NCBI GenBank assembly: GCA_012959805.1
Contig: DUCN01000098.1
Span: forward strand, 257,646 to 321,645
Source of the DNA: Myxococcales bacterium
Lineage (GTDB): Bacteria > Myxococcota_A > UBA9160 > UBA4427
DNA length: 64,000 nt
Direction of reading: 5' to 3'
The position numbers and the translations under genes were made by a program. The notes under the pieces were generated by a model that saw nothing but the letters and a program-made list of their open reading frames with translations, was not told the DNA's origin and ran no database searches. The stretch's first letter is position 1. Each line of letters begins with the position of its first letter. Below are positions 44,514-50,939 of the stretch, in pieces.

Positions 44514-45086
44514 CTACTGGCCCGCTGCCGCCTTCAGCCGAACGCGTCCATCCCTGACCACGACTTTGAAGTCGATGCGCTCACAGTCGAATTTCTTCTT
44601 GAGCGCGGTTTCTTGTTTCGAAATCGCGGACTGTAGTTTTGCCCGGGTGAGTCGACTCGCGTCCTGGCCGGTGGCCAGCATCGCGTCTCGGTAGGTTTCG
44701 AAGATGCCACTATCCTCACCGCCGCCGCCAGCCTTTGCGCGTGATGAAGCCAGGTCTGGGGCGACATCGCGTTCTCGATCGCGAAGGTCGGCCTTGAAGA
44801 CATGTCGTTTGTAGGTCCCCGCATCGATCTGGCGAAGCACGCCGTCCCATTGGCGTTTGAAGGCCTGGTAGCGGCCATTGATGCTGTTGAATTTGAAACG
44901 GAGCGCGGTGTTCGTGATTTGCGTGTTTGAGAATCGGATGATGGTCTTCTGCACCTCGCCGCGAGGCATGGCGGGTTCTGTTGGCCGCGTTCCGAGAAAA
45001 TATTTGTCGTAGTCGAGCTTCAACTGGTTTAGTCGAAGCTCGAGAATCTTCAGCTCATCTTCTTGCGAGGGGGGTGTGCCTTCCAT
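44514..45086 (-). CDS. MXAN_5187 C-terminal-domain-like protein
   Basis: This 190-residue soluble protein starts MEGTPPSQEDELKILELR, continues LNQLKLDYDKYFLGTRPTEP and has FKFNSINGRYQAFKRQWD and AGTYKRHVFKADL. These motifs recall the C-terminal domain of Myxococcus MXAN_5187, known from myxobacteria and relatives; the function is unknown. The first half looks helical and charged, and the second half ends in a small basic domain (DFKVVVRDGRVRLKAAAG). Upstream in-frame codons to 45230 have no family resemblance. It lies downstream of the queuosine transporter on the same strand with a 286-base gap. Confidence 0.65.
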   Translation of the reverse strand: MEGTPPSQEDELKILELRLNQLKLDYDKYFLGTRPTEPAMPRGEVQKTIIRFSNTQITNTALRFKFNSINGRYQAFKRQWDGVLRQIDAGTYKRHVFKADLRDRERDVAPDLASSRAKAGGGGEDSGIFETYRDAMLATGQDASRLTRAKLQSAISKQETALKKKFDCERIDFKVVVRDGRVRLKAAAGQ

Positions 45087-45372
45087 CCAGAACCGAATCG
45101 GCTCTTCCTTGGAACCACTTGAAGGGTTTTGGCCCCGTCCGAGAATTGCGCGTTGGCTGCGCGCGGTCTGCGGTCGAAGGCACCGAAGACCCGGTGGGCA
45201 AATTTCCAACTCCAACCGCCCTCGACGCACCCAGCGAACCGGGGAATCGGCATATTGTGCGGCGATATGTGTCCATCAATGGGCGTGCGCGACAAGGGCC
45301 TTTTGGAACCATTTCGGTCCATCGATGGCCCGTGATGATTCGATCGATCCATCCTGTTCATTCGTCGTCATC

Positions 45373-46155
45373 TCAGAACTCGCGATCCGCTTCATGTTCA
45401 AGGTTTGGATTGATCTGGAGATAAAGACTCAGATAGTGCACGCCAATATAGAAGGGCGCTGTGTCGAAGAGCGCGATGGCGAGTTTGAAGACATAGCCTG
45501 AGCCGATGTACAGCCAGAGCTGCGGCCAGATTGCGAGACTCGAATCGATGGGGAGACCGTGCGCGTAGAAATGCGTAATCGTGATAACGGCAAACGTATC
45601 GACGAATTGACTGACGAGTGTCGAGCCGTTGTTGCGAAGCCAGAGATGTCGTCCGTTCGTCAGGCGCTTCCAGAAATGGAAAAGGGAGACGTCACATAAC
45701 TGTGCTGCGAGATACGCGATCATGGAGCCCACGACAGCGCCCATCGTGAGAAAGCGAATGCGAAAGAAGGCGAAATCGTAGGCGTCCGTCGGCGGCATGC
45801 CCGTCGCTGAATCGAGGACGGGGGTTGGCGGCAGTGCTCCCCCCAACCACAGGAACGCCACGACCCAGGCGTTCAGCAGTAGGCCGACCGCGACGAGGAA
45901 ATTGGCGCGCTTCTGCCCGTAGAGTTCGGAAATGAAATCCGTACACAAAAAGGTAACGGGATAAGGCAGCACCCCGATCGCCAGTGCCATGGGGATCTTG
46001 ATGCCCACAATCTCGAAGGAGAGATCGACGAACCTCGAGGTACCCAAAATGTTGAGCATGGTCATCGAGCCTAGAAAGAGACCCGCCAAGACAAGGTAGA
46101 CACGCTCACGTCGCGCATGAAGCTCCGAAGCTTCGATCGGATGTAGATCACTCAT
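45373..46155 (-). CDS. Queuosine precursor transporter (YhhQ/VUT family)
   Basis: This 260-residue membrane protein has about six to seven helices. The family motifs are visible: FLCTDFISELYGQKRAN, where relatives have T-D-x-x-x-E-x-Y-G, and LRNNGSTLVSQFVDTFAV, where relatives have R-x-x-x-S-x-x-x-x-Q-x-x-D. These are the YhhQ/COG1738 hallmarks; E. coli YhhQ imports preQ0 and preQ1 for queuosine synthesis. It lies 14 bases after bioD, so it is probably read from the biotin operon. No preQ1 riboswitch is seen upstream, consistent with operon transcription. Confidence 0.9.
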   Translation of the reverse strand: MSDLHPIEASELHARRERVYLVLAGLFLGSMTMLNILGTSRFVDLSFEIVGIKIPMALAIGVLPYPVTFLCTDFISELYGQKRANFLVAVGLLLNAWVVAFLWLGGALPPTPVLDSATGMPPTDAYDFAFFRIRFLTMGAVVGSMIAYLAAQLCDVSLFHFWKRLTNGRHLWLRNNGSTLVSQFVDTFAVITITHFYAHGLPIDSSLAIWPQLWLYIGSGYVFKLAIALFDTAPFYIGVHYLSLYLQINPNLEHEADREF

Positions 46156-46169
46156 CGCAGTGACGGATT

Positions 46170-48096
<1,927 letters not shown>

Positions 48097-48100
<4 letters not shown>

Positions 48101-49260
48101 GTCCGAACGATCTCGGGCTTCAGCAATTCATCCCCACCGCCTGGAATGCGAAACTGGGATGCACCCTGGTCCTTCGTGTTCGCTTCATGACTGGATGAAG
48201 GGGAGGCGCCTGCGGCCGCGATGCTGGCTTCGGCTTGCGCCTGGGAATAGGCGTCGTTCCCTTCGATTTCAAATCCGGCATCACGAATCATGCTGTAGGT
48301 CTCGGCAACCGAATCGCCGCGCGTTGTCAGGTATCCCTCGACGAAGAGCGAATTGGCTGGATAGAGCGCGAGCGACTGCATGCCCCGCAGATGGCCTTCC
48401 CGCCCGCCTGCGACGCGAATTTCGGCGTTCGGATTGATGAAGCGCATGAGGCAGAGCATTCGGAGACAGCGCTCGGGTGTGAGCGATCCGTCATCGGTGA
48501 CGCGATTGCCGTCGATTGGGATGAGAAAGTTGACCGGAATCGAGGGAACCTCGAGTTCGCGCAATTTGAAGGCGACTTCGATCAGGTCGAGAGATTCCTC
48601 GCCCATCCCCACGATCAATCCCGAACAGGATGAGATGCCATTTCGTTTGGCGGCTTCGAGTGTCGCTACGCGGTCGGCGTAGGAATGGGTCGACGTGATT
48701 TCGTTATAACGCCTCTCGCTGGTATTCAGGTTGTGATTCATTCGGTCGAGGCCGGCGCGCTTCAGGATCTGCGCATGTTCGTCGCCTAGCAGGCCGGCGG
48801 AAAGACACACTTCGATGGGCCAGCGGGATTTGATCTCGCTGACGAGTCCAGCGATTCGCTTGGTCCGCTCGATCGTGGGTCCGCGACCCGAGAGCACCAT
48901 GCAGTATCTGGAAGCCCCCGACGCAGCGGCCGCTTCGGCTTCGGCCAAGATTGCCTCGTCGCTTTTCATGGCGTATTTCCGAATCGCAGAATCGGAATCC
49001 TTATTCTGGGAGCAGTAGCCGCAGTCTTCGGGGCAGAGTCCGTTCTGAACGTTGTTCAAGACGTGGACCATGACCTTGCGGCCGAAGGCGCGCCGACGCG
49101 GTTCGAAGGCTGCGTGCAATAGAGGGAGCAGCTCAACGTCTGGCCCATCCAGGATCCACAGGGCTTCGGCTTCACTCGGGGGGAAATCGGCCAAAGCATT
49201 GTGCGTGAGGGCTTCATAGCGAGCGAAGGAAGAGGGGGAACTCGATGGGGAATCGGACAT
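48097..49260 (-). CDS. bioB: Biotin synthase
   Basis: BioB (387 residues) is the radical-SAM enzyme that inserts sulfur into dethiobiotin. The [4Fe-4S] Cys triad is C76, C80, C83 in CPEDCGYC. MGMGEE-like GLIVGMGEESLDLIE and the RVAGGREGHLRGMQSLAL segment, which includes the Arg ligand of the second cluster, are present. The N- and C-terminal ends are longer than usual. The ATG at 49260 follows GGAG by 9 bases. It is first in bioB-bioF-bioD-yhhQ and divergent from radA, with a BirA-type operator between them. Confidence 0.95.
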
Positions 49261-49289
49261 GCGTTGGATCTCCAGAGTTGGGGCGCAGC

Positions 49290-49319
49290 AGCCTACCTGG
49301 CGGGCTGGATCGCTGTCAA
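49290..49319 (-). promoter_or_regulatory. bioB promoter
   Basis: Minus-strand TTGACA (49319-49314) and TAGGCT (49295-49290) are separated by 18 bases and lie 30-60 bases before the bioB ATG. The -35 lies inside the left half of the BirA-type operator, so bound BirA would block it. Confidence 0.55.
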
Positions 49320-49344
49320 CCAATGGATCCCAGAGGGTTTACAG
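49313..49344. promoter_or_regulatory. BirA-type biotin operator
   Basis: CTGTCAACC (49313-49321), a 14-base spacer, and GGTTTACAG (49336-49344) form an inverted repeat matching at 8 of 9 positions. This fits the published BirA box pattern TTGTAAACC-N14/15-GGTTTACAA. It sits between bioB and radA, exactly where biotin-responsive control of bioB is expected. Confidence 0.75.
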
Positions 49345-49454
49345 CCCTGATCGAGTGGGAGGAGATTGTCCAGATTCGCTCCAGAGACCTACATTCACCT
49401 TGTTTTCGTGTCTGGATCGGTCAAACTGGCCTCTGGTGCTCCAGGGGGATAATT

Positions 49455-50939
49455 TTGGCCAAGAAACGAACGGTTCACGCCTGCCAGTCTTGTGGGGCAC
49501 AACATCCACAGTGGCACGGGCGCTGTCCGGATTGCGGTGCATGGGACAGTCTCGTCGAAGAAACCTATGTGGCCACGCCATCCTCGGCGACTGCGCCCGG
49601 GGTCAAGGGATTCGGCAGCCCCGGACGTCCTTCGGCGGGCCTCGCGGCGCTGGTGCCTGCAGCCGATGACCAGAAGCCGCGACGACTCTCGGAGATTTCT
49701 CCGGAGGCCAACCCCCGCCTCGCTTCGGGATCCAAGGAACTCGACCGCGTGTTGGGCGGCGGGTTTGTCCCGGGATCGGTCGTTCTACTCGGCGGGGACC
49801 CGGGAATCGGGAAATCGACCCTTGCGCTGCAGGTCGCCGGCCGTCTGGCGGCCAGTGGTCAGTCCGTTCTTTATGTCAGTGGTGAGGAGAGCGGAGAACA
49901 GATCCGTCTGCGCGCGGAGCGATTGCCCGGCTTGGGCGGTGCGCTTCAGATTCTGACGGCGACCCGGGTGGAGGCATTGGCCGAACCCTGGCGCGATCTG
50001 GCCCCGAGCCTGGTCGTTGTCGATTCAATCCAGACGATCCAGACCGACTCCGTCGAATCGGCCGCAGGTTCCGTTGCTCAGGTTCGCGAATCGGCCTCGC
50101 AGCTCGCGGCTACGGCGAAGCGCGCGGGATCGATTCTTCTCCTCGTGGGTCATGTGACGAAGGATGGGAGTCTGGCGGGCCCGCGCGTCCTGGAACATCT
50201 CGTCGATGTAGTGTTGACCTTCGAGGGTGACCGAGCCCATGCCTTTCGATTGCTTCGTGCGTCCAAGAATCGCTTCGGATCCACCGAGGAGATCGGTGTC
50301 TACAAGATGGCGAGCCATGGTCTTGAAGCCGTCGAAAATCCAAGCGAGCACTTCTTGGAAGAACGCAGCACTCGGGCACCGGGCAGCTGTGTGGTCCCGC
50401 TGCTCGAGGGGTCTCGACCGATGCTGGTGGAGTTGCAGGCATTGGTGGCCCCGGCGCCGTACGGAACTCCGCGGCGGACGACGCTCGGACTAGAAGATGC
50501 ACGGGTGGCGCTCCTGCTTGCGGTTCTGGAACGCAGGAGTTCGATCGATATGCTTTCTCAAGACGTCTATGCCAAGGCGGCGGGTGGAGTTCGCGTGGCG
50601 GAGCCGGCTGCGGATCTGGGAATTGCCCTCGCGATCGCATCCAGTCGGCTCGATCTTGCCGTTCCCGCGGACACCGCGGCCATCGGGGAGGTCGGTCTTG
50701 CCGGCGAAGTGCGTCGTGTGTCCCGCGTCGATGTACGTCTGGCCGAAGCAGGCAGACTCGGCTTTCGCCGCCTTCTGGTGCCCGCGGTTTGCGCACGGGA
50801 AATGGTGTCCCGCCGAAAAAAAGGCAGGTCGCCGACCGCTAAAAACGATTGCGAACTTGTTCCCATAGAAGAAGTCGCCCAGGCGATCGACTGGCTGCGG
50901 GAAAACGGGCGAGCAAGCGAGCAGGATGGCCGGTCGTGA
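49455..50939 (+). CDS. radA: DNA repair protein RadA
   Basis: RadA (494 residues) is a RecA-related helicase that helps process recombination intermediates. It has the N-terminal C4 zinc finger (CQSCGAQHPQWHGRCPDCG), Walker A GGDPGIGKST, the RadA-specific KNRFG motif (ASKNRFGSTEEIGVY) and a C-terminal Lon-protease-like domain (DVYAKAAGGVRVAEPAADLG). The TTG at 49455 is used, with AGGGGG 7 bases before. The upstream open frame to 49245 crosses the bio operator and has no family resemblance. It is transcribed away from bioB. Confidence 0.96.
   Translation: MAKKRTVHACQSCGAQHPQWHGRCPDCGAWDSLVEETYVATPSSATAPGVKGFGSPGRPSAGLAALVPAADDQKPRRLSEISPEANPRLASGSKELDRVLGGGFVPGSVVLLGGDPGIGKSTLALQVAGRLAASGQSVLYVSGEESGEQIRLRAERLPGLGGALQILTATRVEALAEPWRDLAPSLVVVDSIQTIQTDSVESAAGSVAQVRESASQLAATAKRAGSILLLVGHVTKDGSLAGPRVLEHLVDVVLTFEGDRAHAFRLLRASKNRFGSTEEIGVYKMASHGLEAVENPSEHFLEERSTRAPGSCVVPLLEGSRPMLVELQALVAPAPYGTPRRTTLGLEDARVALLLAVLERRSSIDMLSQDVYAKAAGGVRVAEPAADLGIALAIASSRLDLAVPADTAAIGEVGLAGEVRRVSRVDVRLAEAGRLGFRRLLVPAVCAREMVSRRKKGRSPTAKNDCELVPIEEVAQAIDWLRENGRASEQDGRS

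Follow-up and report, generated by a model that had tools for sequence, protein, structure and literature searches.

A predicted BirA operator overlapping the putative bioB promoter in a Myxococcales bacterium, and its conservation in related genomes

Results

Organization of the bio locus

The window, i.e., the whole stretch of 64,000 nucleotides analyzed here, carries a cluster of biotin genes on its minus strand. The first of these is bioB, encoding biotin synthase (48097-49260), which matched TIGR00433 at 355 bits (cut-off, 225) and contains Radical_SAM and BATS domains. The end of bioB is overlapped by bioF, for 8-amino-7-oxononanoate synthase (46850-48100, minus strand; TIGR00858, 431.9 bits against 426.45), which is followed by bioD, for dethiobiotin synthase (46170-46844, minus strand; TIGR00347, 175.1 bits against 83.3). 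A gene of the Vut_1/queuosine-precursor transporter family (45373-46155, minus strand; PF02592, TIGR00697) begins 14 nt after bioD and occupies the same place in four close relatives (L002, L004, L013 and L016). To judge from the 14-nt gap, it is likely to be co-transcribed as the last gene of the bioB-bioF-bioD operon. No other Vut_1 gene turned up in the assembly, where QueC gave only a weak partial match, so the transporter could sensibly serve to salvage a queuosine precursor. An open reading frame of 238 amino acids after the transporter gene (44514-45230) is without any Pfam match. On the other side of bioB, and divergent from it, lies radA (49455-50939, plus strand; TIGR00416, 533 bits against 403).

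The bioB-radA intergenic region contains a predicted BirA operator (49313-49344, with no strand assigned). As read from the sequence, this inverted repeat consists of CTGTCAACC (49313-49321), a 14-nt spacer (49322-49335) and GGTTTACAG (49336-49344), and its arms are complementary at eight of nine positions. When compared with the consensus TTGTAAACC-[N14/15]-GGTTTACAA, 15 of the 18 half-site positions agree, and the spacer is 14 nt. The box lies approximately 52 nt before the bioB start and 110 nt from the radA start codon. With up to two mismatches allowed, the pattern TGTMAACC-N14-GGTTKACA was matched once in the window, as compared with a mean of 0.01 in dinucleotide shuffles (one of 100 shuffles with a match). 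The exact pattern, with spacers of 13-16 nt, likewise had a single match in the entire 4.46-Mb assembly (completeness about 90%), and the reversed control gave no match. The BirA-type repeat that an earlier note on this DNA had placed here is correct to the base, and unique in both the window and the assembly. A wider search of the assembly with up to three mismatches yielded one extra place (L045), against seven for the reversed control; because this count falls below that of the control, we took L045 to be a chance match and not a second regulated site.

We also looked for the box at other biotin genes, as the earlier note had advised. The bioA gene is found elsewhere on the same contig as bioB, and the best match in its upstream region had six mismatches, i.e., there was no box; BioY was sought in the assembly and not found. 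The BirA regulon in this genome thus appears to be one operon.

A putative bioB promoter overlaps the operator

On the minus strand, the sequence TTGACA (49319-49314) lies within the bioB-proximal half-site, as the earlier note had proposed, and would form the -35 box of the bioB promoter. It is followed after 18 nt by the -10-like hexamer TAGGCT (49295-49290), then by a Shine-Dalgarno-like GGAG (49273-49270) that was read from the sequence 9 nt before the bioB start, and by the bioB ATG at 49260. A sigma-70 promoter scan returned none at the scanner's thresholds, because TAGGCT agrees with TATAAT at only three of six positions. Judged against E. coli promoters, this -10 is weak, yet its assignment is supported by conservation among the 67 boxed bioB upstream regions described below. 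In these, TTGACA is present in the bioB-side half-site of 52, as compared with 24 for the far half. Moreover, 39 of the 67 have a TAnnnT hexamer at a distance of precisely 18 nt downstream of the embedded -35, with at most five upstream regions showing it at any other spacing between 14 and 22 nt. The recurrence of TAnnnT at this spacing indicates that the overlap between promoter and operator is itself conserved. A half-site shared by sigma factor and BirA also suggests how occlusion would work.

Conservation of the box upstream of bioB in related genomes

With the strict pattern, 33 of 97 genomes were positive, whereas the reversed control gave 0 of 97. There were 34 strict sites, of which 32 adjoin bioB or bioF. 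Both sites in genome G034 are not known to adjoin either gene, and one of the loci concerned, L051, has neither. The G034 sites are two near-identical longer palindromes, TGTCAACTTTTCCC-GGGAAAAGTTGACA (L051, 1501-1531, and G034:C63:583-613), which look unlike the biotin box, L051 being without a biotin gene nearby. They may represent the end of a mobile element or an operator of another kind.

Using a relaxed score of up to three mismatches, we detected a box in 67 of 79 bioB upstream regions, as compared with 12 of 1580 shuffled ones. Most of the 67 boxes had no mismatch (29) or one (28), while eight had two and two had three. The 79 regions come from 78 genomes, since G047 gave two bioB loci; G089, in which bioB begins at a contig end, was left out of the scan. 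The G047 locus that resembles the window more closely (L056, on G047:C391) has a bioB 85% identical to that of the window, though G047 belongs to another family; this contig is probably a stray one in the G047 assembly and may come from the window's genus. By genome, 66 of the 78 relatives scanned carry a box before bioB, which upholds the conservation that the earlier note had made a test of its reading. The 12 upstream regions with no box belong to ten genomes of family f12, to G060 and to G069.

The spacer in the 67 boxed regions is 14 nt in 54 and 15 nt in 13, and this constancy bears on whether the repeat acts in DNA or in RNA. An inverted repeat near two genes might be an element of the transcript, i.e., a terminator, attenuator or riboswitch. 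The spacer, however, is fixed at 14-15 nt in length and varies in sequence, as in operators with two half-sites; the repeat also lies upstream of the bioB transcription start implied by the promoter, and an Rfam search of 49000-49700 was empty. We regard an RNA element as extremely improbable.

BirA retains its DNA-binding domain, and the box co-occurs with it

The assembly contains a single match to PF03099, on contig G000:C18, and hence one birA (L001:1207-2247). Its product of 347 residues contains an N-terminal HTH_11 domain, scoring 44.5 bits against a curated cut-off of 25, and a BPL_LplA_LipB ligase domain above cut-off. Its alignment with BirA structures of the E. coli type begins at residue 28 and takes in both the helix-turn-helix (HTH) and the ligase. 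Its score against TIGR00122 (BirA repressor domain) was 50.5 bits, below the cut-off of 70. The prediction of a bifunctional BirA encoded elsewhere in the genome, which loss of the HTH would have overturned, is supported by the HTH_11 and ligase domains. The neighborhood is inferred to be nadC-birA-coaX, the neighbors being named from their reading frames, and a scan of the birA locus for the box gave a best match with five mismatches, i.e., none.

Among the genomes whose BirA has an HTH, the box is present at bioB in 60 of 61, whereas it is present in 0 of the 10 genomes scanned whose BirA has none, although these counts are not independent samples and amount mainly to one family-level contrast (f12) plus one within-family case (G060). 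In the latter, bioB is kept, BirA is without the HTH, and the 231 nt upstream of bioB before the contig end have no box. The exception among HTH-bearing genomes, G069, carries a perfect box in front of bioF (L057), while at bioB only the half on the promoter side is retained. By Pfam, the HTH was absent from 15 of 15 proteins from HTH-less genomes and present in five of five controls. The presence of the HTH was mostly called from the alignment start, with Pfam run on five such genomes besides the window's own. Four of the genomes behind the 15 HTH-less proteins (G039, G045, G050 and G054) gave no bioB match at E 1e-30. G089 was called HTH-less; its match runs from query residue 21, but the upstream part is in another frame, and Pfam gave no HTH. 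G064, whose birA is divided between two contig ends, was counted as HTH-bearing. Seven of the scanned genomes (G005, G008, G021, G031, G036, G063 and G088) were kept out of the comparison, since BirA was either unmatched in them or matched by no more than a C-terminal piece; six of the seven have the box and one does not.

The joint presence or absence of box and HTH constitutes a clean natural experiment, in favor of BirA as the protein that reads the box. It also bears on the alternative that the box is the operator of some other, unlinked regulator, such as an analogue of the GntR-type BioR or the TetR-type BioQ, with BirA uninvolved. Replacements of this kind are known elsewhere, BioR in alphaproteobacteria being the case described in PMC5343134. 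Such a regulator would leave the co-variation with the BirA HTH unaccounted for, and the motif is the BirA consensus that Table 1 of PMC545781 gives for delta-proteobacteria. We therefore consider another regulator very unlikely. Taken together, the data and the analogy with known BirA systems make it almost certain that the mirrored box before the biotin genes is the site where BirA would sit to switch them off at high biotin.

Position of the box relative to radA

The earlier note had added that the operator may also affect the divergent radA. A possible radA -10, TACATT, is found at 49390-49395 (plus strand), 45 nt beyond the operator; it is a weak candidate, and similar hexamers occur at similar places upstream of radA in several genomes of the same genus. 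A terminator-like stem (49430-49447) immediately precedes radA and falls in a Shine-Dalgarno-like stretch. Throughout the window genus, 94-308 nt separate the box from the start of radA (8 of 8 genomes with a box at bioB). Outside it, in 28 of the 48 upstream regions with a divergent radA, the start is only 22-25 nt away; the distance obtained for G047a is spurious, owing to a partial alignment. In these 28 regions, 10-13 nt lie between the box and a -10-like hexamer, and another 6-8 nt lead to the start codon, a layout typical of leaderless transcripts, though in G034 only three of the six hexamer positions agree. In many relatives (L067, L065 and L062 among them), the hexamer between box and radA is TATANT-like, again with the start codon 6-8 nt on, and radA appears to be leaderless. 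The window's radA, unlike these, has a leader with the Shine-Dalgarno-like stretch.

In this genome, an effect of the operator on radA is unlikely because the box does not reach the probable radA promoter, and radA probably escapes its control; the suggestion of the earlier note becomes plausible in many relatives instead. The stronger version, in which one BirA operator in the window genome governs both the bioB and radA promoters and ties DNA repair to biotin status, could draw on the 28 close arrangements. All of these, however, lie outside the window genus, and even there a TTGACA on the radA side would be approximately 12 nt from the -10, too close to serve as its -35, while the radA-side half is the less TTGACA-like of the two. 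Dual control in the window genome is accordingly very improbable. In relatives with a close radA, bound BirA would cover the upstream part of the putative radA promoter. It is a possibility, albeit an unlikely one, that BirA at one operator occludes two promoters, that of the biotin genes and that of a leaderless radA, in many relatives outside the window genus, which itself has escaped with radA further off. Were this so, the DNA-repair gene radA would be repressible by biotin in those relatives. The open-licence PMC literature yielded no paper describing control of radA by BirA, and a possible BirA block of radA in relatives may be the one mildly new point here.

Discussion

Binding, corepressor and repression are inferred here from what is established for the BirA of E. 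coli. Once there is more biotin than the apo-carboxylases use up, BirA would hold biotinoyl-5'-AMP and dimerize, with the N-terminal winged HTH of each subunit on one half-site. The dimer would thereby cover the bioB-proximal half-site with its -35 TTGACA, 18 nt ahead of the -10 TAGGCT, and RNA polymerase would be blocked. As a result, bioB-bioF-bioD, and probably the transporter gene as well, would be turned off.

The E. coli bio operator overlaps promoter elements, and bioA is transcribed divergently from bioBFCD at that operator. The window system has half-sites of the same TTGTAAACC/GGTTTACAA kind, an aligned repressor-ligase with an HTH, and an operator that overlaps promoter elements. 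It differs from that of E. coli in that bioA is elsewhere on the contig and has no box.

Like BioR, a GntR-family regulator of alphaproteobacteria, the window system is predicted to govern biotin genes. The proteins belong to different families, and alphaproteobacterial BirA has lost its DNA-binding domain, the opposite of what is found here (PMC5343134). As described in the same source, BirA regulons are present in gamma- and delta-proteobacteria, whereas the BirA of alpha- and betaproteobacteria has lost this domain.

The closest parallel is provided by the BirA sites of the delta-proteobacteria Geobacter, Desulfuromonas and Desulfovibrio, published in 2004, which in Table 1 of PMC545781 are TTGTcAACC-[N14]-GGTTgACAA-like and precede bioB, bioF or bioW. 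That source gives one or two sites per genome, with birA apart in most. The window box is near-identical, including the C/G variant that makes TTGACA, and departs from these sites in an outer base that is C/G instead of T/A (PMC545781). The divergent neighbor in this lineage is radA, and not birA or bioA. The findings add an uncultured Myxococcota-like order to the known range of the BirA regulon, a confirmation for the field and not a surprise: the window box is a further instance of a well-known type of switch, in little-studied bacteria.
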